Source: a virus. From it: 23,662 nt of DNA. Where the stretch lies: IMG/VR virus record IMGVR_UViG_3300031952_000151, positions 1 to 23,662 of that record; one strand, 5' to 3'. The notes beneath the pieces were generated by a model. It was not told the origin of the DNA. It searched no databases and was given only the letters and a program-made list of their open reading frames with translations. The position numbers and the translations under genes were made by a program. This document shows positions 3,832 to 23,231 of the stretch, piece by piece (position 1 is the stretch's first letter; each line of letters opens with the position of its first letter).

Positions 3832-4917
3832 TTACTTCTTGATTCCTGCGAGTTTTTGGAATCTTGAAGTCATCTCGTCAGCGTGTGGTTCTACAATAGT
3901 AGACACTGGCTTAGTTGATGATACTGGTTTGCTTGCCAAACCTTCGGTGATAGTACTTACAGTTGCATTGGTCTTCTTTTTGACAACTGATCCACCGGAA
4001 TTAAATGATTCGGCTAAAACGGTATATGCCAACTTGACTTCACGGATGTTTCTGGTCAAGTCGAAAGTGTTAATGATCTTCAACTTATGATCTTCGGTAA
4101 GAGACTTACCTTTGAACAACTTGTTGGTGTATAGCAACTTAGCATTTAACAAATTGGTTTCTGCGAGCACACCCTTCAAATACTTGACGGTGTTTATGTG
4201 TTCACTCAATTGGTTCTTTAATGCTTCGTTTTCTTCATTGATAGCTACTAGAGCTTCTGCCATTTCTTCGTAGGTTACTTCACCTTCAGATGGTGATGGA
4301 ACTTGGCCAGGAACTGGAGCTACTGGAACAGCTGGTGCTGGAACAGCAGCCATTGGATCAACTGGCGCAACTGGCGCAACTGGTGCTGCTGGAGGTGCAA
4401 CGGCCATTGGATCAACGTTTTGTTCTTCCATTTCCAATTCAGCTAGAAGTTCATCAAGATTTACTTCTTCACCATCAGAATCTGATTCAGAACCCATTAC
4501 CTCGCCGTCTTCTACCATTTCTTCACTAACGACTTCACCTTCAAGTTCAGCTAGAATTTCATCTAGTTCTTCGCTAGTTACTTCTTCGTCGTCCATATTA
4601 GTTTCTTCTTCCAATTTTGCGTCGAATTCTTGTTTACCGGCTGCAGTTGTGCTCTTGTCAGCAGATGATGATGGCTTTACAGGATGTTGCTTAGAAGCTA
4701 CATTTCCCTTTTCTCCACCAATCTTTGAAGTTGACAAGTTTTCGTCAACTTGGTCTTCATCAGATGGTTCGTCTGTCATATCTTCCTTGAGTTTTTCTGC
4801 GAACATTTCTTTCATGCTCTTAGCAAAATTTTCCTCAAGAAAGGTCTTTGCATTGGCAATTGCTGTTTCACGAACAGCCTTTGCGTCTGCGATACTTTCC
4901 TTTAATAGATCGCTCAT
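3832..4917 (-). CDS. gp22: Prohead core scaffolding protein, T4 gp22-like
   Basis: This 361-aa, very acidic protein sits directly upstream of gp23, as in T4. It has an N-terminal helix (1-45), a Glu/Asp-rich region (100-165), an Ala/Pro/Val linker (170-205) and a coiled coil (about 216-260). The conserved C-terminal block is LLYTNKLFKG, then LKIINTFDLTRNIREVK and YTVLAESFNSG (about 261-308), as in gp22 proteins of T4-like phages. Several L/I-x-E sites suitable for gp21 are visible, for example LLKE7|S and ITE325|G, as expected for a core protein that is degraded during maturation. It assembles inside the prohead and guides the gp23 shell. An AAAGGA ribosome site lies 12 nt upstream of the ATG, one of only two clear Shine-Dalgarno sequences in the window. 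Confidence 0.92.
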   Translation of the reverse strand: MSDLLKESIADAKAVRETAIANAKTFLEENFAKSMKEMFAEKLKEDMTDEPSDEDQVDENLSTSKIGGEKGNVASKQHPVKPSSSADKSTTAAGKQEFDAKLEEETNMDDEEVTSEELDEILAELEGEVVSEEMVEDGEVMGSESDSDGEEVNLDELLAELEMEEQNVDPMAVAPPAAPVAPVAPVDPMAAVPAPAVPVAPVPGQVPSPSEGEVTYEEMAEALVAINEENEALKNQLSEHINTVKYLKGVLAETNLLNAKLLYTNKLFKGKSLTEDHKLKIINTFDLTRNIREVKLAYTVLAESFNSGGSVVKKKTNATVSTITEGLASKPVSSTKPVSTIVEPHADEMTSRFQKLAGIKK

Positions 4918-4929
4918 ATAATATTACTA

Positions 4930-4935
4930 TCCTTT
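4930..4935 (-). promoter_or_regulatory. Shine-Dalgarno sequence of gp22
   Basis: The minus strand reads AAAGGA 12 nt before the gp22 ATG, which is slightly far. It stands out because most genes in this window lack such a sequence. Confidence 0.55.
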
Positions 4936-4994
4936 CTTATTGTTTTTTTGGTGAAGTTATTGAAGAACTCCAAAGAAGATTTAATTTAGATGTG

Positions 4995-5012
4995 ACATCA
5001 AATGATTGATGT
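4995..5012. repeat. Perfect inverted repeat in the gp22/DUF3008 divergent intergenic region
   Basis: ACATCAA (4995-5001) and TTGATGT (5006-5012) form a perfect 7-bp stem with a 4-nt ATGA loop. It lies between the divergent starts of gp22 and the plus-strand gene at 5074. On the minus strand it would be in the gp22 leader if transcription starts near 5060. There is no T-run, so it is more likely a regulatory or RNA-stability hairpin than a terminator. Confidence 0.5.
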
Positions 5013-5016
5013 ATTT

Positions 5017-5024
5017 GATAAATA
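5017..5024 (+). promoter_or_regulatory. Possible late promoter box GATAAATA for the plus-strand islet
   Basis: The octamer GATAAATA differs at one position from the T4 late promoter TATAAATA and points to the gene at 5074. The region is very AT-rich, so a chance match is possible. A competing TATTTATT element lies immediately before the ATG. Confidence 0.3.
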
Positions 5025-5061
5025 AATATAATTAAAAATCGTAAGATGTTAAAAAAAATGA

Positions 5062-5069
5062 TATTTATT
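5062..5069. promoter_or_regulatory. AATAAATA (minus) / TATTTATT (plus) element in the divergent region
   Basis: On the minus strand this is AATAAATA, one base from the T4 late promoter, pointing to gp22 with a leader of about 140 nt. On the plus strand it is TATTTATT placed exactly 4 nt before the ATG at 5074, the same arrangement seen before three minus-strand genes. Either or both uses are possible. Confidence 0.35.
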
Positions 5070-5073
5070 GTAT

Positions 5074-5688
5074 ATGCCAGCACAAAGTGAAAAGCAAGCA
5101 AGACTATTCAGACTCGTAAGAGCCTTCCAAAAAGGTGATGTTAAACCAAGTAAAGTATCCCCACAAGTACGTAAAATGGCTCATACAATTAAACCAAGTA
5201 GTGTAAAAGATTTCACAAAAGTAAAAGAAATCATTAAAAAACTAAAAGAAGACTATGAATCACAGGGTTCTGAATATACACTAAGTAAAGCAAAAGAAAT
5301 TACTGACAAACCTTTCGATCAAGTTTTGAGAGAAAACGTTGGGGTTCCATTTGATGAAAAAGAATTGTTAACATTTCAATCAAAACAAAGTGGCTTTGCT
5401 GGATTTGGAAAAACAAACTTTGTTCATAAAAGAAGTACCAAAGAAGTTTCCGCTGAAGTACAAAGTAACGATTCTACCAAAAAGTTTGTGTTCAAGAAAT
5501 TGACCAATAATCAAAACAAAGGATTTTATAACTACGCTTGTTTCGTTAGAATACTATCCGATGATTCCGACGAACCAAAAGATAAAGTATTTTATACTTT
5601 GAGCAGCATATTCGACGAAGATGGCGGAACACAAAAAACAAAAATCTTAGCCGATTTTATAGATAGAATTAACTCATATGGCCTATAA
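5074..5688 (+). CDS. DUF3008-like N-terminal domain protein
   Basis: I place the start at the ATG at 5074 rather than the upstream TTG at 5068. The product then begins MPAQSEKQARLFRLVRAFQK, which matches the start of DUF3008 proteins ('MPAkSkaQqrlf...aya.kkG'). The 'SPQVRKMAHTI' and 'VKDFTKVK' segments continue the DUF3008 pattern to about residue 55. The remaining 150 residues are an extension that I do not recognise, Lys-rich and then acidic (ILSDDSDEPKDK). DUF3008 proteins are common in phages and have no assigned function. The gene is divergent from gp22 and opposite to all neighbouring morphogenesis genes. Its last 11 nt overlap the next gene. TATTTATT lies 4 nt before the ATG in place of a ribosome site. 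Confidence 0.7.
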   Translation: MPAQSEKQARLFRLVRAFQKGDVKPSKVSPQVRKMAHTIKPSSVKDFTKVKEIIKKLKEDYESQGSEYTLSKAKEITDKPFDQVLRENVGVPFDEKELLTFQSKQSGFAGFGKTNFVHKRSTKEVSAEVQSNDSTKKFVFKKLTNNQNKGFYNYACFVRILSDDSDEPKDKVFYTLSSIFDEDGGTQKTKILADFIDRINSYGL

Positions 5689-6106
5689 TTACAACCCAAA
5701 TTTCAGCAAACACATGGAACTTAATAAAAGTAATATTAAATTCTTAAAACAGCTTAGAAACAATGATAATTTTAATTATAAGCCTACTTCTATTAAGATG
5801 AAAAACTTCGTGAATAATGAACTTGAAGAAATTCAAAAATATAAAATTGCTGACATAGACAATCCAAATGGTTGGTCATTTAATGAAATTGATACGTTAG
5901 GACATATGGGTTTTAAGATGGATGATGACTATGATCTATCATGTGAAGTAGAAATCCCAAGTCTAGAACTAGAAGACCACAAACAAACTATTAAAATCTA
6001 TAAAGAAGAAGACGGGTATGTTTTGGAAACATCCCGCCGTTACGTATTTGAAACCTTCAATAAATTAATTGAATATATTGATAGTATTCCAACTAGAATA
6101 TTTTAA
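5678..6106 (+). CDS. Hypothetical protein, 142 aa, second gene of the plus-strand islet
   Basis: The start overlaps the end of the DUF3008-like gene by 11 nt, so the two are probably cotranscribed and coupled. The product starts MAYNYNPNFSKHMELNKSN and has a basic, Asn-rich N-terminal third. A C-terminal half of alternating charged and hydrophobic residues ends in a segment like a small strand-helix domain (YVLETSRRYVFETFNKLIEYI). No membrane segment, Cys motif or catalytic signature is visible and I do not recognise the family. Its stop codon overlaps the stop of the convergent gene at 6103 within a shared TTAA, so no space is left for a terminator. Confidence 0.6.
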   Translation: MAYNYNPNFSKHMELNKSNIKFLKQLRNNDNFNYKPTSIKMKNFVNNELEEIQKYKIADIDNPNGWSFNEIDTLGHMGFKMDDDYDLSCEVEIPSLELEDHKQTIKIYKEEDGYVLETSRRYVFETFNKLIEYIDSIPTRIF

Positions 6107-6567
6107 TTGGTTTGATCGATATCTCTTGAAGAAGCGATACTTACTGAGTCTGGTCTACCTTGTACTTGATAAGATTGTGGTGCTTCTGTAATTGGATCTG
6201 CAATTTCAAAATAACGTTCCAACTTCAAACCAATTTCTTCGTACAACATCTCAAGTTGTTTTTCAACACCTTTGATCTTGTGTGCTTCTTCGTATAGTTT
6301 ACCAGCCATCTTCTTTACATCCTTCATGTCACGTTCGATCATCTTGGCTTCCATCCATTCGTTACATTCTTTAATGGCATAACGTTCGGCTAGATTAACA
6401 GCTTCCATAATTTTGGTTGCGGTTTCATAGATAGATGATGCCTTTAATGAACCACGATATTCATTGTAAGCTTTGATTGTTTCATATAACTTCTTTTTCT
6501 CCTCTTTTGTTAAAGCGGAATAAGCAACTTCTGTGGAGTTTTCTACTAAATGTTTTAGCTTGATCAT
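6103..6567 (-). CDS. Hypothetical helical protein with capsid-targeting-like N-terminus
   Basis: The 154-aa protein lies between gp21 and gp22, inside the head-assembly cluster, but T4 has no counterpart at this exact place. It begins MIKLKHLVENSTEV, a short amphipathic leader ending in L-V-E9, which fits the L/I-x-E rule for gp21 cleavage and resembles T4 capsid-targeting leaders. The rest is predicted almost entirely helical and is rich in Glu, Lys and Ala (KKLYETIKAYNEYR, LAERYAIKECNEWMEAK, KQLEMLYEEIGLKLER), as expected for a core or internal head protein. The C-terminal 25 residues are polar and disordered-looking. TATTTATA precedes the ATG by 5 nt and no Shine-Dalgarno is present. A prohead-core or internal-protein role is inferred from position and leader only. 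Confidence 0.65.
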   Translation of the reverse strand: MIKLKHLVENSTEVAYSALTKEEKKKLYETIKAYNEYRGSLKASSIYETATKIMEAVNLAERYAIKECNEWMEAKMIERDMKDVKKMAGKLYEEAHKIKGVEKQLEMLYEEIGLKLERYFEIADPITEAPQSYQVQGRPDSVSIASSRDIDQTN

Positions 6568-6572
6568 ATGAA

Positions 6573-6580
6573 TATAAATA
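6573..6580 (-). promoter_or_regulatory. TATTTATA element 5 nt before the ATG of the 154-aa gene
   Basis: The minus strand reads TATTTATA, then TTCAT, then ATG. The same octamer with the same spacing occurs before the starts at 16579 and 16954, and a one-base variant before the start at 5074. It may be a promoter giving a near-leaderless message or an AU-rich translation start element. It lies in the 23-nt gap behind gp21. Confidence 0.4.
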
Positions 6581-6590
6581 TTGTTTGAAC

Positions 6591-7193
6591 TTACAATTCA
6601 GAAAGAATATTGTGAATTAATCTTTCTACATTGCTATATGGATTGATTATTATTTTTTGATCAATACTTTCATTGATCTTTCCTTGTGGATACATGAATG
6701 CACCTTGAGTACTTGGATTGCTTACAAAGTCGAATGCAATTAAATCAAAATCGTCTTGTACAACATCCGCGTTTTCACGCATGTCTTTTTTTACACTACC
6801 AAGACCACGACTACTGATACCCAAAAGAATACCTGATTGTAGTAAATCTCTTAAAATATTACCACTTGGTGTAGGAAGAATTTCTACAGTACCCACTAAA
6901 TCTTTACCATCCCAACCCATATCTACGATATTATGACTAACGTTCTTTAAGTTAACAACGCTACTTTCTGGATGATCCAATTCACCCATAGCACGACGTT
7001 GTTTTACAAAGTTATCCATATATTTGTTAGCTTCACGTTTCAAAATATCTTCTGGATAAACACGTCCATTTTGGTTCTTTGCATCAGCACGTTGCAAAAC
7101 TCCATTAACAAGGAGTTTGCCATCTTTCAATGATTCGTTTAGTGATGTTCTTTTAAATTCAAAAGGTAATACGTCGATTAGAATTTGTTTCAT
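6591..7193 (-). CDS. gp21: Prohead core protein protease, T4 gp21-like
   Basis: This serine protease of the herpesvirus-assemblin type cleaves scaffold and capsid proteins after L/I-x-E during head maturation. The catalytic His lies in GELDHPE (H74), the catalytic Ser in GISSRGLGS (residues 127-128), and the downstream FDFVSNPS motif is also conserved. The 'NGVLQRAD..NQNGRVYP' block near the start matches T4 gp21. I use the ATG at 7193, giving 200 aa. A longer frame from a GTG at 7229 would add 12 His/Asn/Leu-rich residues inside the preceding gene and has no ribosome site. The chosen ATG begins 2 nt after the stop of the upstream gene, which suggests translational coupling. Confidence 0.93.
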   Translation of the reverse strand: MKQILIDVLPFEFKRTSLNESLKDGKLLVNGVLQRADAKNQNGRVYPEDILKREANKYMDNFVKQRRAMGELDHPESSVVNLKNVSHNIVDMGWDGKDLVGTVEILPTPSGNILRDLLQSGILLGISSRGLGSVKKDMRENADVVQDDFDLIAFDFVSNPSTQGAFMYPQGKINESIDQKIIINPYSNVERLIHNILSEL

Positions 7194-7194
7194 A

Positions 7195-8364
7195 TTAAGC
7201 TGTAGGTTGAGATTGTGGTGGTTTTTCACCAGCGGTTTGTCCAGTTGCGGGTGGTTCTTCGGATGTCACACTATTTGCGGATTGAGTTGCGGTTTGTTTA
7301 TTCGGATCAACCAATGCTTTAGATTTAGCTATTTGATATTGATCTTTAGGTTTGACATCCGCGCTTCCTAAAATTTTGATCTTAAATCCTGGTTTAACAA
7401 AGAATTTAGCAGTTTTTTGTTTGCTTTCTTCACGACCCATAATTACAATAACATAACGATCATAATAATAGTCGATTTGTACGCCAGTTACATTAATTGT
7501 ATAATCGGCCTCAGGTTGTTTATATCCCTTACTAGCACGAACCACAATCTTTTTATCTAAAATTGAATCTTGAATCTTCTTTTGAAGATCAGTCTTTAAT
7601 TGTTCAGTACTATTTTTCAACTTAGAATCAAAAGCAGTAAAATCTGGTTGAATATCGTAAGATTGAAGATTGACATCAACAGGAGCTTTAGGAGTTGTTG
7701 GAACTGGTTGAGTTGGAACAGCAGGTTGTGCTGGTGCTGGTGCTGGTGCTGGTGCTGGTGCTGGTGCTGGCGATTGTTGATCAGCCTCATTCTTTAACTT
7801 ATACAATAAACCACCAACTCCCTCTTTACGCATTTGTCTAACAAGTCTAATTGCGTGTTCTGTTACAGGCAGCATTCCTTGTTCATGACCAGCCAATGCC
7901 GGATCTAGTTCTGGATCTCCGTGTTGTACTAACCCATTTGAATCTGTGTATGTATCTATTGGCTCAATGTTTTGAGCTGGATTAGCATATGCTGGTTCAC
8001 TATACATTTGATTTTCCAAAGCATAACCAGTATTGTTTTTAACAGGTTTTGCCAATTTATATCCGAATTGTGTAGCAGCACGAACATTACCAGTAGATTT
8101 TTTATTGGAACTAAATGCAAATGGTGTCATTACACCAGGAACACCGGCTGTAGTGCTAGCTTCATTCTTCTTCTTTAATTGGGTATCTACCTGTTTTTTT
8201 ATTTTTTCACGGGTAGATGGTGAAATTTTGTCTGCGTGTGATTGCAACCACGCATTGTAATCTTGTTTAGAAATACGAGACATTTCGCTATCTCTGTAAT
8301 ATTGAGCGTATTTTTTTACAATGTCTCTAAATGGATCACCCGATTCTTTAAGCAGTTTTTTCAT
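7195..8364 (-). CDS. Hypothetical head-cluster protein, 389 aa, with Ala-Pro repeat
   Basis: The gene sits between the portal region and gp21, where T4 carries the small core genes 67 and 68, but the sequence does not obviously match either. The N-terminus MKKLLKESGDPF contains L-K-E7|S, a possible gp21 cleavage site; gp22 begins with a nearly identical MSDLLKES. A helical region follows, then a low-complexity Ala-Pro run at about residues 199-211. A more folded C-terminal region (about 235-345) contains alternating strands (KIVVRASKGYK, YYYDRYVIVIMGREE, KFFVKPGFKIKI). The final 40 residues are polar. The start overlaps the preceding gene by 17 nt, and the stop is followed almost at once by the gp21 ATG. 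The function is unknown; a core or internal head protein is a reasonable guess. Confidence 0.7.
   Translation of the reverse strand: MKKLLKESGDPFRDIVKKYAQYYRDSEMSRISKQDYNAWLQSHADKISPSTREKIKKQVDTQLKKKNEASTTAGVPGVMTPFAFSSNKKSTGNVRAATQFGYKLAKPVKNNTGYALENQMYSEPAYANPAQNIEPIDTYTDSNGLVQHGDPELDPALAGHEQGMLPVTEHAIRLVRQMRKEGVGGLLYKLKNEADQQSPAPAPAPAPAPAPAQPAVPTQPVPTTPKAPVDVNLQSYDIQPDFTAFDSKLKNSTEQLKTDLQKKIQDSILDKKIVVRASKGYKQPEADYTINVTGVQIDYYYDRYVIVIMGREESKQKTAKFFVKPGFKIKILGSADVKPKDQYQIAKSKALVDPNKQTATQSANSVTSEEPPATGQTAGEKPPQSQPTA
7733..7770. repeat. Hexanucleotide tandem repeat inside the 389-aa gene
   Basis: GGTGCT occurs six times in perfect tandem plus two further bases, encoding an Ala-Pro dipeptide run on the minus strand. 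The DNA-level perfection indicates recent slippage and likely copy-number variation between strains. Confidence 0.9.
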
Positions 8365-9223
8365 TTTGAATTTTTTTCAATTCTTCGACCAATTCGTATG
8401 CGGTCAAAAGAGATGTAAGTTGATTTTCTTTAACCAATCCTACAACGTTTTTACTTGAAAGTTGAGTTATAGTTTCATTCAATTTAATCTTAATAACCTC
8501 GTTATTATTGATTGATGAAATATACTCTTTCAAAATCTCAGAAACCCTCTTGTATTCTATATTTACAAACTCGGTGAATTTGTTAGTATTAGATACGTTT
8601 GTAATATATTCTTTCAACAAACGCTTTTGATCTGGTAGCAAGTTACTATATTTTTTATTGAAGTTTTCAATTAGGAACTTATACGCTAACAATCTAACCT
8701 CGGCTGGTTGACTATCATAAATGTCTAGTGGTTGTAAATCACTCTTTTTATCCTTAGTTAAACTTTCAATGACACATTCTCTTGCTTCTACCAATTCTTC
8801 TACTCCAAACTTAACTTCATTTAAATTCTGATTCTCAAATAATTTATAAACCGATGCATGCAATTTATAATTTGGAATCTTATTCTTCAAAAATTCATCG
8901 ATGTTGTATTGTTCCTTGATTTCTTTAACCAAGTTATATTTTTGTTTATTCAACTTATGTGCATCAATTTTGGAACGTGTTTGCAAAACCACATCAAGAA
9001 TTCGTTCTGCGGTTTGAGGATTTTTAGAAGACTGTGATGATACGAAGTTGTATAATTGGAACTCCCTGCCAAGTTCTTTTGATTCGTTGAAATATCTGAA
9101 CATTAGATTTTTCGTGAATGATTCATCACGGCCGGCAAGAATATCAGACGTTATTTGTCTGGTAAGTAGTTCGAATAGAATACCGCTATTCTTAAACTTT
9201 GAATGTTTCGCTTTCTTATGCAT
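8348..9223 (-). CDS. Conserved head-cluster protein next to the portal, 291 aa
   Basis: I start at the ATG at 9223 (MHKKAKHSKFKNSGILFELL), since GGAA lies 4 nt upstream; a TTG three codons earlier is less likely. The basic N-terminus leads into a helical protein with conserved-looking segments such as ILFELLTRQITSDILAG and ELGREFQLYNFV. The remainder is helical, with Lys, Asn and Glu predominating and no Cys motif, membrane segment or enzyme signature. The position, immediately downstream of gp20 and before gp21, corresponds to the T4 67/68 region of prohead-core proteins. I cannot show homology to them. A late-type promoter (TATAAATA) lies about 47 nt upstream, in the gap after gp20. The last 17 nt overlap the next gene. 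Confidence 0.7.
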   Translation of the reverse strand: MHKKAKHSKFKNSGILFELLTRQITSDILAGRDESFTKNLMFRYFNESKELGREFQLYNFVSSQSSKNPQTAERILDVVLQTRSKIDAHKLNKQKYNLVKEIKEQYNIDEFLKNKIPNYKLHASVYKLFENQNLNEVKFGVEELVEARECVIESLTKDKKSDLQPLDIYDSQPAEVRLLAYKFLIENFNKKYSNLLPDQKRLLKEYITNVSNTNKFTEFVNIEYKRVSEILKEYISSINNNEVIKIKLNETITQLSSKNVVGLVKENQLTSLLTAYELVEELKKIQNEKTA

Positions 9224-9269
9224 AAGTTCCAATTAAATATAAATATAAATAGAATTTAAAAATAATCAC

Positions 9270-9277
9270 TATTTATA
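9270..9277 (-). promoter_or_regulatory. T4-type late promoter box TATAAATA
   Basis: The minus strand reads GTATAAATAGTG just after the gp20 stop, an exact match to the T4 late promoter octamer, which is recognised by the gp55 sigma factor in T4. It would drive the 291-aa gene and the genes behind it. The extended form AAATAGTG recurs near 21040. Confidence 0.6.
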
Positions 9278-9284
9278 CTATTCT

Positions 9285-12239
9285 TTATTCTTTTATGTTG
9301 TTTTCGTCCATGAACGAAGGTTTATTTTGAGATTCCTTTAAAATATCTTTGTGACTATTGAATGCTTTAACTAGAGATGATATAGATTCCATAGACAATG
9401 GAGATTTATTTTTGTACTTGTGTGTTGGTGATAAATCACTATCTCTATTATTTTCTAAAGTGCCTAGTGGGTCTTCTCCAAATGGATATTTGCTAGCATC
9501 TTTTCTACCGGTTTGATCTCTTTTCTTTTCTGTGATTGGAGGAGTGCCACCCGCTGGTGCTGCACCAGCGGACGATGTATCGGCTTCTGCACCGCCGCCA
9601 CCGGCTTCAGCACCACCAGCGGATGATGCATCGGCTTCTGCGCCGCCGCCACTGGTTTCAGCGCCTCCACCAGTACCTCCATCAGTTTCTTCACCCTTTG
9701 ATTTCAAGAAATTCAAGGCTGGATCATTTCCTTCTTCTTCAATTTGTTTAAATCTATATGTTGCTTTAGCATCATCAATAAGTTGCTTTTGTAGATTAAT
9801 CATGTCTTGATCAGACATACTGAATACGTTGTCATAAATCCACTTCTTACTGAACAACTTTTGTTCTTGCATGTCCTTACTAACTTCAACCTTACTCTTC
9901 CAAACATCAATCTTTTCTTTTTCAAAGATTGTAGATGGATTTGTCAATTCTAATGTAAAGTCAACAAGTGATTCGTCACGATATCCTTGAGAATATAAAT
10001 GAATAACAGCAATCTTGTTCAATTCACTAACAATAATACGTTGAACACGTTGAATTGTACGAGCAAAACGGATATCTTCAGCTGCCAATGTAGCTTTACC
10101 ACTTAAACTTTCGTCGTATCCCAAAAATGCTTTTGGAATTTTGAGTGCTGCCATCAACTTGTTACGTAGATATTCGATATCGTCTGTTCCGGTCCATTCA
10201 AGACCTGGCAAATTGCTAATATCGGTACCACTATCACCACCACGAACTGGCAAGAAAAAGTCTTCTACCATGTTTTGTAGATTGAAACGAAGATTGTAAT
10301 CACCGGTAGCTTGATCCAAATACGGAGTCTTTTTCATCTGCGCGATGATACGTTCCATATGATTATCAACCTCATTTGGTGGAATATTACCAATATCTAC
10401 CTTGAAAATTCTCTTTTCAGGAGCACGCATAATACGATGAATCAACATTGCGTCTTCCATCAAACTTAATTGTTTCCATACACGACGAGCACCTTCCAAC
10501 ATACTCTTACCGTATGGTAAAAAATTGCTATCGCTTAACAAGCGAAAATGTGCAATTTGATAATTTTCTAAATCTTCCATTTTGTTTCCGTATGGAAGAT
10601 TGACTTGGAACTTAACGAAATTCTTGTTTTCTAAATGTGTATTTTCTAAACGAGTTACATAATATGAACTGAGAGGTTCAACCATGTATACACCATATTC
10701 TGGACTAATATGTAATCTCAAATAAAAATCACCATACTTTGCTAAACTACGAGTCCAACTCCAAAGATTGAATTCAATATTCAAGATATCATAAAACAAA
10801 TTGTTTAATATTTGTTTGATATCATCATTTGATGATTTTACTGAAATGATATCACCCAATTCATTTTTACTAGTACATTCGTCTGCATAAATGTCAAGTG
10901 CGGATGAAAGGATTGGATCCATATCCATTGTATTATGGACGAAACAAGAATCCGTAGCAAAATTCTGATACTTTTCAACAGTAACATCGTAAACTTCTAT
11001 TTCTCCTATATATTCAATATCAACAATTTTGTGATTAAGAGATGACTCTATATAATTTTTAAATGATTTCCAATCAGTGTTACTTTTCTTCAAACGATTC
11101 TGTAGAACCGAATAATCACAATTTAAATCTTTAACTAATCCCCAAGATGTTAATTTTCCGTGTTGTTTGTAATAATTTAACGCTTTAATTTTTAATATAT
11201 CAATTGTTAAATCATCTCTATATTTTGGATTGTTTTTTTCCGTTTGATCTCTATTAACAAATATTTCTTTTAAAGTATTAGATCTTTTATCATTTGATTC
11301 AATGGAATGTTGTTTTCCATAGAAAGGATTGTTTATACCAACTCGATATCCGTTCCATCTGTGAAATTTTCTATTTTTATATCCAGTTGAATTTTTGATC
11401 TTTTCCAACGTATTTTGTTTATTTTCAACCGACCAAATAATTTTATTATTTAATTCTGCGTGAAATTTTCTATGATCAGAATCTAACATTATACGTAAAT
11501 TCTCTGGAAGATTGTTTGTTTTATCAAAATTTTTATGATGAACAACTTCGTTGGAACTTAATTCCCGATTAAATTGTTCGGCGACTATTTTATGTTCTGT
11601 TTGCCATCCTTTACTAAAATTATACAAACTTCTATATCCATTGTTGTAGAAATCTTTTTGATAAAAAGGCATCACAGACTCGCCAATTGATAGATCTTCT
11701 AATTTTTTATATTCTCCATTTCTCATTAAAAATGGATGTCCGGCACTTCCTATTATGAATTGTCCATTGTCAAAAATTACTTTCCAACACTTTCTAGGAC
11801 CACCTTCTTTCTTTCTAGGATGATATGCTTTACCTAATTTTACACTGTCAGTTTCGTGATCGTATGAAAATACATAAAATCTTTCTTGGGGTTTATCTTT
11901 ATATCTCTCCGTTAGTTCAGCTATAGTTGGTTTAGTACCATCTGGTAGAGGTATGATTGTATCAGGACCAACACAGTCATAATCACGAAATAATTCTATA
12001 CGACTGCTTTGATATGATAGATTAAAGTCGCGGGTATACGAATTATATGCCGTAGTTCTGAGACGATTAAAACGATCTCTTAGACTATTACGATCAGTTG
12101 CATACTGAATTTCATCAGTATCTATAACCTTCAACTTCTTACCGCCAACGTTTCTAACAATTACGTCGTTGCTAAACAGACGTTTAAGTCTGGCAAAAAG
12201 TGATCTATTCTTTAATTCTTGAAATGATTTATCAGTCAT
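9285..12239 (-). CDS. gp20: Portal vertex protein, T4 gp20-like, interrupted by an in-frame intein
   Basis: The 984-aa precursor consists of an N-extein (1-88), an intein (89-436) and a C-extein (437-984), giving a 636-aa portal after splicing. The portal forms the dodecameric vertex through which DNA enters and leaves. The join restores IELFRDYD/TMDMDPILSSALDI, a conserved gp20 region. Further gp20-type segments are SWTRSLAKYGDFYLRL, the MEDAMLIHRIMRAPEKRIF block and GYDESLSGKATLAAEDIRFA. The C-terminal tail after about residue 860 carries a Gly/Ala/Glu-rich linker of two 17-residue repeats, then a short basic/acidic end. It is about 110 aa longer than T4 gp20, mainly from this tail. It follows gp17 directly with a TATAAATA promoter in the 25-nt gap. 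Confidence 0.94.
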   Translation of the reverse strand: MTDKSFQELKNRSLFARLKRLFSNDVIVRNVGGKKLKVIDTDEIQYATDRNSLRDRFNRLRTTAYNSYTRDFNLSYQSSRIELFRDYDCVGPDTIIPLPDGTKPTIAELTERYKDKPQERFYVFSYDHETDSVKLGKAYHPRKKEGGPRKCWKVIFDNGQFIIGSAGHPFLMRNGEYKKLEDLSIGESVMPFYQKDFYNNGYRSLYNFSKGWQTEHKIVAEQFNRELSSNEVVHHKNFDKTNNLPENLRIMLDSDHRKFHAELNNKIIWSVENKQNTLEKIKNSTGYKNRKFHRWNGYRVGINNPFYGKQHSIESNDKRSNTLKEIFVNRDQTEKNNPKYRDDLTIDILKIKALNYYKQHGKLTSWGLVKDLNCDYSVLQNRLKKSNTDWKSFKNYIESSLNHKIVDIEYIGEIEVYDVTVEKYQNFATDSCFVHNTMDMDPILSSALDIYADECTSKNELGDIISVKSSNDDIKQILNNLFYDILNIEFNLWSWTRSLAKYGDFYLRLHISPEYGVYMVEPLSSYYVTRLENTHLENKNFVKFQVNLPYGNKMEDLENYQIAHFRLLSDSNFLPYGKSMLEGARRVWKQLSLMEDAMLIHRIMRAPEKRIFKVDIGNIPPNEVDNHMERIIAQMKKTPYLDQATGDYNLRFNLQNMVEDFFLPVRGGDSGTDISNLPGLEWTGTDDIEYLRNKLMAALKIPKAFLGYDESLSGKATLAAEDIRFARTIQRVQRIIVSELNKIAVIHLYSQGYRDESLVDFTLELTNPSTIFEKEKIDVWKSKVEVSKDMQEQKLFSKKWIYDNVFSMSDQDMINLQKQLIDDAKATYRFKQIEEEGNDPALNFLKSKGEETDGGTGGGAETSGGGAEADASSAGGAEAGGGGAEADTSSAGAAPAGGTPPITEKKRDQTGRKDASKYPFGEDPLGTLENNRDSDLSPTHKYKNKSPLSMESISSLVKAFNSHKDILKESQNKPSFMDENNIKE
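9569..9670. repeat. Two 51-bp direct repeats in the portal C-terminal tail
   Basis: Two imperfect copies with a 51-bp period (starting at 9569 and 9620, for example CGGACGATGTATCGGCTTCTG and CGGATGATGCATCGGCTTCTG) encode 17-residue Gly/Ala units containing AEAD-SSAG. The region is markedly richer in GC than its surroundings. It probably forms a flexible linker. Confidence 0.75.
10932..11975 (-). mobile_element. Intein with HNH/NUMOD3 homing endonuclease in the portal gene
   Basis: The 348-residue element begins at Cys89 (CVGPDTIIPLPDG, block A). Block B, with its His, is GSAGHPF (165-171). Block F is EVYDVTVEKYQNFAT (415-429). It ends with the His-Asn pair of block G (SCFVHN, N436), followed by Thr as the +1 nucleophile, so all splicing residues are present. 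The middle holds an HNH endonuclease of the HNH_3 type: H216, the VVHHKN motif (232-237) and TNNLPENL (241-248). A NUMOD3 DNA-binding motif follows (NNPFYGKQHS, 303-312), then a helix-turn-helix-like segment (about 345-397) that may recognise the target. The inserted DNA is visibly more AT-rich than the flanking portal sequence, which fits horizontal spread by homing into portal genes lacking the intein. Confidence 0.93.
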
Positions 12240-17034: not shown

Positions 17035-20000
17035 TTAGGAAGAAAATTGAGCGCCTGTTGGTAGAATGTTGAAATCGAGGATGATGAATTCAGCAGTTCT
17101 AGTTGGTTGGATGAAGATTTGTCCGTAAAGAATATTACGATCAATCAAGTCAGGAGTATTATTTTGTTCATCCATCTTGACTTGGAATGCGTAGATACCA
17201 TTACGTTGTTGTACAGATTCCAAGTAAGGATTTACGATACTCAAGAAACGATTTCTTGTAGCAGCTACGTTTTGTTCAAACACTAAGTAGTTGCTTGAAC
17301 TTGCGACAAACTTCTTCAAGTTGATCAACAAGCGACGAACATTGATACGATCCAAAGCGCTTGGGGCAATTTGTAGAGTCTTTTGACCCCATACACAAAT
17401 ACCTTGGCCAGGGAATGCCGCGATTGGATTTACACGACCTTCATACAAGGTATCACGTTCACTATGAGTTAAACGATCAAGCACTTGTACAGCGGTTGTA
17501 ATACCACCACGATTTAGACCGGCTGGTGCGTACCATTCAGCAGCAGCATTGTCATTAGCAGCATAAACTGCAGGCAATACTACTGAAGGTGGAACACTGA
17601 TAATCTTGTTGGTATTTGTATCTAGGATCTTAACCCATGGATAATATGTACCTACGTAGTTACTATCAATTGTTGCTACGCTGTTGACAGCGGCATCAAT
17701 TAATCCAACGGTTTGGTTACTTGCTGGGAACACAATGTTATCCATGATATAGAAACAATCGCCACGAGCTTCACACATATTGATAGTAATATCAGTTACG
17801 TAACTATGTTGTTCACAGAAGATACCAGGCAATACGATCAAATTGATATCAAATTCATCAGAATTACCTAGAGCAGCAATTGCTTGTTTGTAAGCAATAC
17901 TACCTGGACTATTGATGTTTGTACAATCTAGACCTTGTGTATTACCAGCAGTAATATCACTACCTATATTGATTGGAATTGCTGGCCATTGGCCTTCAAA
18001 TCCACCTTGGAATCCAACTAAGAACTTACGTAGTCTGACATATGTAGATTCATTAACTGGATCATAGTTGCTTGGAATACTACCACTCAATGTTGGAGAT
18101 AGTAATGAACCAGTTCCATTTGCGTAGAACTTAGCACTATCAGTACCCCATGTCTTGTCTTCCAAGTCGAAGTCAATATTGATACCATTTACACTACTTG
18201 GTAGTGGCTTGAAGTATTGATATGTATCGTTATATACACCTACGTTAGCAGATGATGTTGGATACAATGATGCCAATTCGTCGTCAGCTTGTGGAACGTC
18301 GTTAAAGACTGTACCAGAAGCATATTTACCAGGAGCCAATGACCAGATACTTGCTTTGCTGTATCTTACTGGTGGAATAATATCTGCCAAAGTACCTGCA
18401 ACCGGAGTTGAATATGATTCAAATCCATATGGAATAGATACTTCTGGATATAGACCATCAGCCATTTCAATTCTGATAAATTGACTCAAGTTTGTATATG
18501 TGCCAAACTCAATAATCTTACCAGAGAAGGTAATGTAAGCATATCTGTCACCGATTCTACGAGCAACAAAGTTAGCAGACTCAGGATTTAGATTCAAGTT
18601 TTGATAAATTTCCAAATACTTTGGACGTTTATCAGTATCACTATAAGCACGAACTGCTAGTGTAAATGAACCCCAATCACTACCTGGGACTGTACCAGCC
18701 AACTTAACGTTGCTGATTTCAATCTTGTACTTCTTGTTGCTCAATGTACCATCACTCATGGTGTGTACCTTAAATAATTGGAACTTAGTTGGTGTAGAAG
18801 CTGCACCAGCACTACCTTTGAATGGAGCAATCTTTTGGGAATAGATCCATGGGGTGTATGCGTTGGTAATACTAAATTGGCTATCACCAGCATTTAAATT
18901 TGTACTATATTGATCTACAAACTTCAAAGGTTCTCCAACTGCAAATCCGGTTTCTGGAGCAGTCTTGGCAGACAATTTCCAACCACCACCTTCTGCACTT
19001 GGACGAGTCTTTTCAGCGATGAATCGTTGAATACTATCATTGAACAACAAGTAGTTGTAAGCAGCTTCTATCTTTTGACCGGCAACTTGCTTAACAGGAT
19101 TACCAGCTGTAGGATCAAATCCGAATACGTTAGCAATATAATTATTATCACTTTCATTTAGGGTGAAGTCATAATAACCATATGTACCAGCGCTTGTAGT
19201 ACCATCATCATTTGCGAAGTTATACTTCAAAATTAGTTGGTAGTTATTTTCGTTTGGATTGATCAAACCCTTATATGGGAATACAGAACTTGTCAATTGA
19301 CTCAAGGTTGATGTATCAAAACCAAATACTTCATATCTGTTATTGAATTGAGTTGAACCATTTTGAGTGTTATTCAAAACAGCCAATACCATCTTGGTTC
19401 TTGCGGATGAGTTTGGATTACATGGATCACCACCTGAAGTGTCTTGACTTGTGAATGTACCATTAAAATCACCATAAGAACCACCTACTAAACCTAAGAA
19501 TTGTAGTGATGAACCACAACTGGTTGTACTTCTAATGGATTTTACACTTGCGCTATATAATGATAAAGTACCATTTACATCAAATGTGGTTGTATCATAA
19601 TCTAATGAAATCTTGGCACTTGAAGTCATTGATGCTGAGAAGTAAGCAACAGTTTCAGAACTTTCGTTGAAAGCTGTAGAAATCTTAACTTCTGGACTTA
19701 CATCTTGATTTTGTACACTTGAACTTAGATAATAACGACCAGCAAATACTCCAGATGCTGGAATTAAATCAGATATCTTTCTAAACAAGTATGTGTTAGC
19801 ACCAGAACTATTTGTTGTAGTTACTGTTCCAAGATTTACTTGTTTTCCAGCATACAATACTGAACCACTTAATGATCCGCCTTTACCATTGTATCCAGCT
19901 GGATAGTTACTTACAGCTGCCTTTGGAGCAAACTTACCATTAACTACACCATTTAGTCTCAAACGTGATGTATCATGTCTGAAAGTAAAAGTAGCGTAAG

Positions 20001-20976
20001 ACTTTGAACTACTGATACTAGCATTACTAAAGTCGAGAGCATTATTTGCTGAGTAACTACCGAATACTAATCCATAAGTTATATCATTACCATTCAAAGT
20101 ATATGACGAACTTAAATAATTATAATATGGTCTTGCACTTTTCAAAGTTGCTGAATCGAAATCAACCTTATATTTGGTTGATCCGATAGAAGCTGAAACA
20201 GCACCATTAATTAAAGTTTTATCATAATCAAAGTTAGCTAATACATATTCACTAGAACCACCTGGTGGTTGTACCTTCAAACCTTGTTGTACTACAGAAG
20301 CACTAAAGATATAGCTATTTCTTGTAGTTGCAATCTTGAACAATTTACCTTTACTACCAGATGCGGCTAATGATGCGGATAATGTTGAACTATTTGATGC
20401 GTCTGGCCATCCGGCAGATACGAGAAATTGTTCAACTTCCGTATTCGTAGCTCTGGTTACAGACACAGATGATGAAATAAATCCATTACCAAGTAGACCA
20501 CGAACTGCTCCTGTATTACTTGCCACCAAGGTTGAAGAACTATATTCAAGGATTATATTTGATGTATACGCATCACTATCTAAATACATAAATGATGCTG
20601 TGGTCAAAGCACCCAAGTCGTTATTTTTGTTCCAGTAGCCTGGTTCAGCATATACGACCAATGGATTCTTTTGCCAGTATCCGGTTAGACCACCGATACG
20701 TACAACGGTTACTACACCTTGTTGAATTAGATACTCTTTGGTTGTGTATGGACCATAATAAACTCCGTCAGCTACGCCGAAACGTTGTTCAAGCATTGCT
20801 ACTTCGGTTATTCTTGCTGGGAAGAATGCTGGTCCGTCTGAAAATGGTGCTACGATGGCACCACCGATATTGGCTACACCTTGTGCTAGCCCTGATAGAT
20901 CATTTTCTCTGGTAAATACACCAGGACTTACTATATTTTGTGTTGGTGAAAATCTTCCACCTTCTTGTATTGGCAT
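17035..20976 (-). CDS. gp18: Tail sheath protein, T4 gp18-like, unusually long
   Basis: The N-terminus (SPGVFTRENDLSG, about 17-29, then VANIGGAIVAPFSDGPAFFP) and the AMLEQRFGV and TTKEYLIQQG segments match contractile sheath proteins. The C-terminal 300 residues contain the conserved sheath core: EFDINLIVLPGIF, AANDNAAAEWYAPAGLNRGG, GICVWGQKTL, DRINVRRLLINLKKF and the closing AEFIILDFNILPTGAQFSS. At 1313 aa it is twice T4 gp18 (659 aa). The extra sequence is one large central insertion of Ser/Thr/Asn/Tyr-rich, strand-like character (about 130-1000), presumably domains exposed on the sheath surface. It forms the contractile outer tube. A good AAAGGA ribosome site lies 7 nt before the ATG, and a hairpin with late-promoter-like boxes lies upstream. 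Confidence 0.93.
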   Translation of the reverse strand: MPIQEGGRFSPTQNIVSPGVFTRENDLSGLAQGVANIGGAIVAPFSDGPAFFPARITEVAMLEQRFGVADGVYYGPYTTKEYLIQQGVVTVVRIGGLTGYWQKNPLVVYAEPGYWNKNNDLGALTTASFMYLDSDAYTSNIILEYSSSTLVASNTGAVRGLLGNGFISSSVSVTRATNTEVEQFLVSAGWPDASNSSTLSASLAASGSKGKLFKIATTRNSYIFSASVVQQGLKVQPPGGSSEYVLANFDYDKTLINGAVSASIGSTKYKVDFDSATLKSARPYYNYLSSSYTLNGNDITYGLVFGSYSANNALDFSNASISSSKSYATFTFRHDTSRLRLNGVVNGKFAPKAAVSNYPAGYNGKGGSLSGSVLYAGKQVNLGTVTTTNSSGANTYLFRKISDLIPASGVFAGRYYLSSSVQNQDVSPEVKISTAFNESSETVAYFSASMTSSAKISLDYDTTTFDVNGTLSLYSASVKSIRSTTSCGSSLQFLGLVGGSYGDFNGTFTSQDTSGGDPCNPNSSARTKMVLAVLNNTQNGSTQFNNRYEVFGFDTSTLSQLTSSVFPYKGLINPNENNYQLILKYNFANDDGTTSAGTYGYYDFTLNESDNNYIANVFGFDPTAGNPVKQVAGQKIEAAYNYLLFNDSIQRFIAEKTRPSAEGGGWKLSAKTAPETGFAVGEPLKFVDQYSTNLNAGDSQFSITNAYTPWIYSQKIAPFKGSAGAASTPTKFQLFKVHTMSDGTLSNKKYKIEISNVKLAGTVPGSDWGSFTLAVRAYSDTDKRPKYLEIYQNLNLNPESANFVARRIGDRYAYITFSGKIIEFGTYTNLSQFIRIEMADGLYPEVSIPYGFESYSTPVAGTLADIIPPVRYSKASIWSLAPGKYASGTVFNDVPQADDELASLYPTSSANVGVYNDTYQYFKPLPSSVNGINIDFDLEDKTWGTDSAKFYANGTGSLLSPTLSGSIPSNYDPVNESTYVRLRKFLVGFQGGFEGQWPAIPINIGSDITAGNTQGLDCTNINSPGSIAYKQAIAALGNSDEFDINLIVLPGIFCEQHSYVTDITINMCEARGDCFYIMDNIVFPASNQTVGLIDAAVNSVATIDSNYVGTYYPWVKILDTNTNKIISVPPSVVLPAVYAANDNAAAEWYAPAGLNRGGITTAVQVLDRLTHSERDTLYEGRVNPIAAFPGQGICVWGQKTLQIAPSALDRINVRRLLINLKKFVASSSNYLVFEQNVAATRNRFLSIVNPYLESVQQRNGIYAFQVKMDEQNNTPDLIDRNILYGQIFIQPTRTAEFIILDFNILPTGAQFSS

Positions 20977-21063: not shown

Positions 21064-21591
21064 TTATAAACTGCCTATAAACTTTTTAATGATTTCGACA
21101 GATGGAACATCATTTAAGTCTGATAATTCTAAATTGTATATGATGTTATACTTTTCTCTGGAAATTTCAAAATTGTCCAGATCGTCATTAAACTCAGATA
21201 TATTTACATAATATTTAAAATTAGTACCATGTGTTTGGTTATATAAATCTATGTAAGACCCCCAAATTCTGGAATCGTTGAGATTATTGGTTTTTAAATT
21301 AAACATAAAATTGTAATCTTTTATGTTAAAGTCATACTCATCTATTAGATTCATACCATCATCCATACTAAATGCGTAGAGTCTGATATAATCAAATTGT
21401 AAGGATTTTATATTTGTACGTAGATACCAATACCCAATTTCTGGCGTTTCAGTTGAATAAAATTCATGCTCCTTACTTGAAATCACATAATGTAGTGTAT
21501 GATTAAAATAATAGTCGGGTACACTATTAAATGTTAGTTTAATAAATGAATCTGTATATTTTACGCTAAAAAAATTATTTTTTGTTTTCAT
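21064..21591 (-). CDS. Hypothetical protein, 175 aa, last gene of the sugar-modification operon
   Basis: The ATG overlaps the carbamoyltransferase stop as ATGA, so it is cotranslated with that gene. The product is rich in Tyr, Phe, Asn and Asp and looks strand-rich in the first half. The stretch from IDEYDFNIKDYNFMFNL through NDSRIWGSYIDLYNQTHGT to NFKYYVNIS (about 82-131) resembles the N-terminal half of TibC-like O-heptosyltransferases, which have '..fnl.dK.v.i.L.s..lGD..aW..yv..f...h...k.yvs'. The likeness is by eye and weak, and the glycosyl-binding residues are not evident. It could be a reduced paralogue of the neighbouring glycosyltransferase's N-terminal domain, or an unrelated accessory protein. 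Confidence 0.55.
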   Translation of the reverse strand: MKTKNNFFSVKYTDSFIKLTFNSVPDYYFNHTLHYVISSKEHEFYSTETPEIGYWYLRTNIKSLQFDYIRLYAFSMDDGMNLIDEYDFNIKDYNFMFNLKTNNLNDSRIWGSYIDLYNQTHGTNFKYYVNISEFNDDLDNFEISREKYNIIYNLELSDLNDVPSVEIIKKFIGSL

Positions 21592-23231
21592 ACGAGTTTA
21601 TAAATTTTATTATTTATGATCAATAAATCAACCGTACCTTCTGATAAGTGAGATAGAGCTTCATTTGGTGAATTTATTATAGGTTCTCCATGACCATTAA
21701 AACTTGTATTCATCAATACTGGTATATTTGTTTTTTCATTGAATTTACTTAGTATTTTATGAAACAATGAATGATGATCTTTATTCACCACCTGTGGTCT
21801 AGCAGTATTATCATGAAAATTTATGACTGCTGAAATTTTATTAACCCATTCTTCACGTACGGTATAACACAATGTCATAAATTCGGCTGTATTCTTAGAT
21901 TTATATACATGGCATATATCCTCAATATGTTCTTCCATAATGATTGGTGCAAATGGCATTATTTCATCTCTCTTTAATCGTTTATTAATATATGCGTGTG
22001 TTTCTAACCTAGTTGGTTCAACAACTATAGATCTAGACCCTAAAGCTCTGGGTCCATACTCAGCTGCACCATCAAAAATTCCAATAACTTTTCCATCAAC
22101 TAAATAATTTGCAACATTATCAAAGTCTAACTTTTCCTCTACTATATTTTTACCAAATTTGGATGAAAAATTGTTTATATCTTTTTGTATATCATCATCC
22201 GAGTTTCTTTTTCCAAAAAAAACATTTTTTATTCTGCGATTTGTAAATTCTCCAAGTTCTACACCATATGCAATTGCTGAACCCAAAGACAATCCTTCAT
22301 CTCCCATCGCCGGATACACCCATATATTTTTAAATGAAAGATATTCATTTATTTTTTGATTTAACTTTACATTTGCAAATACACCACCTGCTAAACAAAT
22401 ATTATCAAATGGACCATATTGGTCATATAATGACTTAATATGATTTAAAAGAGTGTTTTCTGTAATATATTGTAAATTATATGCTAAATTTCTTTTTAAA
22501 TCCAAAGCATCGTTTGGATTTAAACCATGTAGAAGTTGTTTAAATTTATTTTCAATGGTGCAAGTTGCTTTTATCATATCATTCTTAACAAAGAAATTTA
22601 ATATACTATGAATTTTATGATCAAACTTACCTTGTGCGGCGAGCCCCATTATTTTGCCTTCGTCCTTTAATGGAGTTAAACCAAATATATAACACATTAA
22701 ATACCACATATTCGCAATACTTCCATGTTTTAGTCTTTCACCCACTTCAATTAATTTGCCATTTTTAACTATATATGTCGCCGATTGATTATCATTTAAA
22801 TTATTAAACCAATTGTATTTTTGATAGTTAGAAATATTTAATTCGGTCCAATTATCATCCCCTATGTCACCACCATCGTATGATACAACCAATGTATTGT
22901 CATTAAATCCAGATGTATAGTAGGCTCCACATGCATGTGCGTAATGATGTCCTATCAATTTTATACTTTTATTTTTTAATACATTTACGATCTCATGATG
23001 TTTATGGTGAATAAACGGTTTTGCAACTGCAAATTTTACGTTTGGGTCTTTTATATCAAAATCAAAATCTTTTTGAATTGCTTCAAAACTATGTGATGGA
23101 AATGCTCCACCAGCATATGCGGATTTTATACGTGAGAATCTCTCCTCGGTATAACACGCGAGTATTTGATTATTTTCAATTAAAGAAAAACCTACATCAT
23201 GTGCGCCGATATAACTTCCTACAATTTTCAT
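21588..23231 (-). CDS. Carbamoyltransferase, NodU/TobZ/CmcH family
   Basis: The 547-aa protein has the full two-domain family architecture. The N-terminal Kae1-like domain starts IVGSYIGAHDVGFSLIENN and holds the metal-binding HHYAHA motif (95-100), VVSYDGGD (115-122) and LAGGVFANVKLN (280-291). The C-terminal YrdC-like domain has GAAEYGPRALGSRSI (388-402), MPFAPIIMEEH (425-435) and NTSFNGHGEPI (508-518). Family members transfer a carbamoyl group from carbamoyl phosphate, via carbamoyl-AMP, to a hydroxyl of a sugar or other small molecule. The length is typical and all main motifs are intact. It overlaps its neighbours on both sides as ATGA, tying it to the heptosyltransferase and the 175-aa protein. 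A glycan on the virion or cell surface is the likely acceptor, but a modified DNA base cannot be excluded. Confidence 0.92.
   Translation of the reverse strand: MKIVGSYIGAHDVGFSLIENNQILACYTEERFSRIKSAYAGGAFPSHSFEAIQKDFDFDIKDPNVKFAVAKPFIHHKHHEIVNVLKNKSIKLIGHHYAHACGAYYTSGFNDNTLVVSYDGGDIGDDNWTELNISNYQKYNWFNNLNDNQSATYIVKNGKLIEVGERLKHGSIANMWYLMCYIFGLTPLKDEGKIMGLAAQGKFDHKIHSILNFFVKNDMIKATCTIENKFKQLLHGLNPNDALDLKRNLAYNLQYITENTLLNHIKSLYDQYGPFDNICLAGGVFANVKLNQKINEYLSFKNIWVYPAMGDEGLSLGSAIAYGVELGEFTNRRIKNVFFGKRNSDDDIQKDINNFSSKFGKNIVEEKLDFDNVANYLVDGKVIGIFDGAAEYGPRALGSRSIVVEPTRLETHAYINKRLKRDEIMPFAPIIMEEHIEDICHVYKSKNTAEFMTLCYTVREEWVNKISAVINFHDNTARPQVVNKDHHSLFHKILSKFNEKTNIPVLMNTSFNGHGEPIINSPNEALSHLSEGTVDLLIINNKIYKLV

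Follow-up and report, generated by a model that had tools for sequence, protein, structure and literature searches.

The window analyzed here, a virus contig of 23,662 bases taken over its whole length, harbors a T4-type portal (gp20) gene whose reading frame is extended by 348 codons, which raises the question of whether the extra residues form a domain of the portal or an intein that is removed from it and, in the latter case, whether that intein is still mobile. The reading we strongly favor from the sequence evidence is that the insert represents a class 1 intein, a mobile element which would home by means of its own HNH/NUMOD3 endonuclease; it very probably splices and probably still homes. 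The relevant features are as follows.

9285 to 12239, minus strand: T4-type portal (gp20) precursor open reading frame, 984 aa; 636 aa once spliced
11976 to 12239, minus strand: N-extein, residues 1 to 88, ending in FRDYD; 100% identical in the intein-free contigs L042 to L047
10932 to 11975, minus strand: intein, 348 aa, CVGPDT...SCFVHN; 1,044 nt, in frame; assigned from profiles and empty sites
11676 to 11975, minus strand: N-terminal splicing half with blocks A and B, Cys1 and His80; assigned from profile, residues and Foldseek
11472 to 11594, minus strand: HNH_3 endonuclease domain, His146-His147 ... Asn159 ... His172; Pfam match, residues kept in 47 of 47 full-length copies
11295 to 11339, minus strand: NUMOD3-like motif GINNPFYGKQHSIES; matched in 21 of 24 family members, best E 1.1e-5
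11037 to 11204, minus strand: helical segment at the C-terminal end of the endonuclease part, resembling a helix-turn-helix; modeled by AlphaFold2 as four helices
10932 to 11039, minus strand: C-terminal splicing half with blocks F and G, Asp330 and His347-Asn348; assigned from profiles and conserved residues
9285 to 10931, minus strand: C-extein, first residues Thr(+1)-MDMDP; Portal_T4 profile

A Pfam search of the precursor placed the Portal_T4 match (E 2.2e-67) downstream of the insert, and a Terminase_6N gene (Pfam) is located immediately upstream of the portal gene; as judged from sequence, the spliced gene product is a T4-type portal, gp20. The insert corresponds to precursor residues 89 to 436, or window positions 10932 to 11975 exactly, with Thr directly after it, and the complete intein described in the initial annotation was thus delimited correctly to the base. 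With the intein removed, the portal sequence reads ...IELFRDYD/TMDMDPILSSALDIY.... The earlier statement that excision restores a conserved gp20 sequence, FRDYD/TMDMDP, holds with respect to restoration but not to unusual conservation, as this insertion site (site a) lies at the 63rd percentile of entropy in the portal family, in which site e (listed below) is alone within the lowest few per cent. The open frame was kept in none of 2,000 shuffles of the intein's 1,044 nt, and the GC content of the intein is 0.29 versus 0.36 for the exteins. Across the contig, intein profiles were matched in the portal only, making this its single intein. Elsewhere in the window, positions 17035 to 20976 (minus strand) encode a tail sheath protein of 1,313 aa with a very long N-terminal part, its sheath domains being confined to residues 1029 to 1304, and a NodU-type carbamoyltransferase gene (21588 to 23231, minus strand) adjoins the structural genes.

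The Pfam profile Intein_splicing was matched across residues 96 to 436 (E 1.8e-13), and NCBIfam intein_Nterm and intein_Cterm were both above cut-off. All of the splice-site residues noted previously (Cys1, the block B His, the terminal His-Asn and Thr+1) are present. Their constancy was assessed in the intein family at portal site a, comprising 53 distinct intein DNA sequences (47 full-length), for which a stricter sequence pattern was applied that avoids false internal ends in some copies. Cys1, block B His80, block F Asp330 and Asn348 show no variation among the 53 distinct copies, and Thr occupies +1 in 52 of them, with Cys in the remaining one. A penultimate His, which the window has, is found in 18 copies, the other 35 having Ser, Lys, Gly, Arg or Ala at this position. 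An AlphaFold2 model of the intein, built from 24 relatives, is of moderate quality (pLDDT 68, pTM 0.42; residues 335 to 348 low), and its best Foldseek matches are solved inteins, namely PhoCDC21-1 (E 5e-6) and NpuDnaB (4e-5). The portal would accordingly be made first as a 984-aa precursor, in which Cys1 is predicted to initiate an N-to-S acyl shift, the N-extein would pass to Thr+1 and Asn348 would cyclize, yielding a seamless 636-aa portal with Asp88 joined to Thr89. It would follow logically that head production depends on splicing.

That the insert is instead a non-splicing domain retained in the portal would be in keeping with its being open and in frame, and with splicing being so far a prediction from sequence, and yet this explanation is hardly credible in view of the alleles that lack the insert. 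Six public intein-free contigs (L042 to L047) encode a portal which is 100% identical to the spliced sequence over the 501 residues searched, and their DNA is 98.1 to 99.3% identical to that of the window across the junction, over 4 to 9 kb, the closest empty allele being 99.3% identical over 6.5 kb. Where the window reads GATTATGAC/intein/ACAATGGAT, these contigs read GATTATGAT/ACAATGGAT, so that near-identical phages with empty sites at precisely this junction directly support the insertion point. Because taking out the 1,044 nt restores a natural allele, portals bearing the 348 residues as a fixed extra domain, a possibility raised at the outset, are excluded. The retention of every splicing residue, the purifying selection described below and the inteins elsewhere in the portal gene, whose removal likewise restores gp20, also argue against a retained domain.

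At the junction, a single base separates the window (GAC) from the six empty alleles (GAT), and five of the six show zero differences from it over the next ~390 nt downstream, such that a long conversion tract is not readable; GAC is present in 10 of 80 empty alleles and is, therefore, not a clean co-conversion marker. The site-a intein was absent from the best 80 matches to the spliced portal, a sample which favors uninterrupted genes, and no intein frequency is therefore claimed. One match of the precursor search, LR756501, was discarded, as its intein sits in ribonucleotide reductase and not in the portal. Flavobacterium phage immuto, which ranks with the nearest isolates, has a portal free of inteins.

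The endonuclease part of the window's intein is matched by HNH_3 (Pfam, E 1.6e-6 to 5.4e-7), in agreement with the type originally assigned, and every one of the 47 full-length copies retains the HNH residues (HH..N..H), His172 being slightly outside the profile match; sequence-profile matches include the HNH homing endonuclease PDB 1u3e (E 0.014). The NUMOD3 motif is borne out at the family level, the window's own sequence alone falling below the cut-off (E 0.007 to 0.013). Intein residues 258 to 313, which are without a Pfam match, are modeled as four helices, which is compatible with the helix-turn-helix-like segment recognized earlier, and this segment probably binds DNA.

An alternative is that the intein splices while its endonuclease is inactive, the element persisting in the portal by descent. 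Relatives in which the endonuclease is partly or wholly deleted do exist (L037, 189 aa; L039, 263 aa; several of 308 to 317 aa) and, as would be expected from the homing cycle, these retain the splice residues; moreover, dN/dS between the window and L004 is higher in the endonuclease (0.38) than in the splicing domain (0.08). We nevertheless consider this alternative unlikely, since the HNH residues are preserved in every full-length copy and near-identical empty alleles exist alongside. The endonuclease dN/dS of close pairs, at about 0.1 to 0.4, indicates purifying selection.

Very recent transfer between divergent portals also stands against persistence by descent. Comparison of the window with L004, L005 and L006 gave an intein dS of 0.04, 0.03 and 0.10 and an extein dS of 1.27, 1.37 and 2.08, respectively, and the corresponding values for L184 versus L185 are 0.02 and 1.77 (extein divergence was computed on projected columns, and earlier values for L007, L026 and L027, which carry further inteins downstream, were dropped). 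As synonymous divergence in these four pairs is far lower for the intein than for the extein, horizontal movement of the intein into the same portal site is clearly indicated by the sequences. The opposite case is presented by L021 and L194, whose portal DNA is 99% identical and whose intein DNA is 76% identical, while the correlation between intein and portal identity is r = 0.43 over 1,325 pairs, which are not independent. A donor was not found among bacterial MAG matches, which are distant (26 to 36%) and include the phage-like portal of L130 described below. Under the favored reading of a homing class 1 intein, the HNH, NUMOD3 and helical DNA-binding parts would cleave portal genes that lack the intein, at the junction sequence TTTCGTGATTATGAY/ACAATGGATATGGATCC or close to it, and in co-infected cells the break would be repaired from the intein-bearing copy, allowing the intein to spread.

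In related phages, portal gene inteins were found at ten sites, each insert restoring gp20, with two of the ten sites coming from one distant MAG contig (L130).

Site a: FRDYD/T, HNH intein
Site b1: DPILS/SALD
Site b2: ADE/C
Site c: WTRNM/CKYGD
Site d: LPYGK/S, LAGLIDADG-like by eye
Site e: WKQL/C or T
Site f1: SGK/STLA
Site f2: GKATLA/SEDV
Two sites of L130, a Wolfebacteria MAG contig: EF/TPEI and YNTL/SVDV

The inteins across these sites are of several types (HNH, LAGLIDADG-like and endonuclease-free). In L148 (positions 4671 to 10529), a longer copy of L014, inteins a, b1, c and f2 occur in one 1,953-aa open reading frame, with nine extein residues between sites a and b1; L200/L034 are listed with L148 for this four-intein portal frame. 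The 484-kb huge phage LR756508 carries three portal inteins. The portal of L130 (3239 to 8875; NVTD01000053, Candidatus Wolfebacteria MAG) contains four inteins, two of which begin with Pro1 at different sites, and this contig is probably of phage origin, having been binned with a candidate-phylum bacterium. In L035 (2690 to 6496), site a is empty and a 53% identical HNH intein is present at site b2, which suggests a move to a new site within the portal gene. Inteins with Pro in first position, and neither Cys nor Ser there, were observed in L011/L214 (3001 to 3921, site c), L014, L215, L217 and L130; in these, the fourth position of block F is Cys (DVYCMTVVGP), which is class 3-like, and +1 is Cys or Ser, but Phe and Val/Ile stand where the WCT motif has Trp and Thr, possibly making them an unusual splicing variant.

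Some relatives also have intein profile matches in the adjacent terminase and in the prohead protease. The prohead protease inteins of L211 and L213 end in SGN or TGN, not HN, and are inserted at ELDHPE/SSVVNL, adjoining a His which may be catalytic; the terminase large subunit intein of L212, LAGLIDADG-like by eye, lies in the stretch that separates the Walker B region from the STPRG motif. Such repeated hits on genes for head assembly (portal, terminase and prohead protease), together with the conditional splicing published for mycobacterial DnaB (PMC6195587, PMC7360933), could be taken to mean that splicing provides a checkpoint by which head assembly is regulated and is not neutral to the phage. 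This is very unlikely given that near-identical phages lack the intein and that its sporadic distribution and horizontal transfer suit a selfish element. A rather improbable proposition is that the portal ranks among the densest known intein targets and that, with the terminase and prohead protease inteins, head assembly awaits several, maybe conditional, splicing events.

Near-identical phages that differ in the presence of the intein constitute natural matched alleles, which allow tests of homing, of target-site change and of what an intein costs when it sits in an essential virion gene. The many kinds of intein within one protein family provide material for studies of intein competition, and the portal family represents a source of new HNH endonucleases and protein-splicing tools.

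The window intein is of a kind already known, HNH inteins being a published minority type and portal inteins likewise having been published. HNH inteins have been known since 1997 (Dalgaard et al., as cited by PMC8966425) and share with the window intein an HNH endonuclease between the splicing halves; on a comparison by description, the window intein differs in that its HNH_3 domain is combined with NUMOD3 and a helical tail and that its host protein is a T4-type portal. Six portal (PORT) inteins have been reported in cluster C1 mycobacteriophages, and phage terminase inteins have been published as well (PMC5050341); the PORT inteins sit in POG1190 and are set beside the window intein by host protein alone, both being in a phage portal protein. 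The spliced portal matches the T4 gp20 portal (PDB 3ja7, 6uzc; phmmer E about 2e-23), whose solved chains are intein-free; no description of inteins in T4-type gp20 was found in the literature searched, which does not prove their absence from it. Dense inteins are also known from crAss-like phages (TerL, Hint-Hop type; PMC7886860) and Jug phages (PMC12363816), where they similarly occupy core phage genes, several per genome and two in one TerL, but in another host gene and another phage lineage. The haloarchaeal MCM helicase, with four close intein sites, shares with the portal family several sites per gene, varied combinations and frequent horizontal transfer (PMC10643990). Whereas that protein is an archaeal helicase, the portal family described here offers ten sites, as many as four of them occupied at once, and it is this T4-type portal gene as a multi-intein hotspot that goes beyond the initial finding and forms the unusual part of the system.
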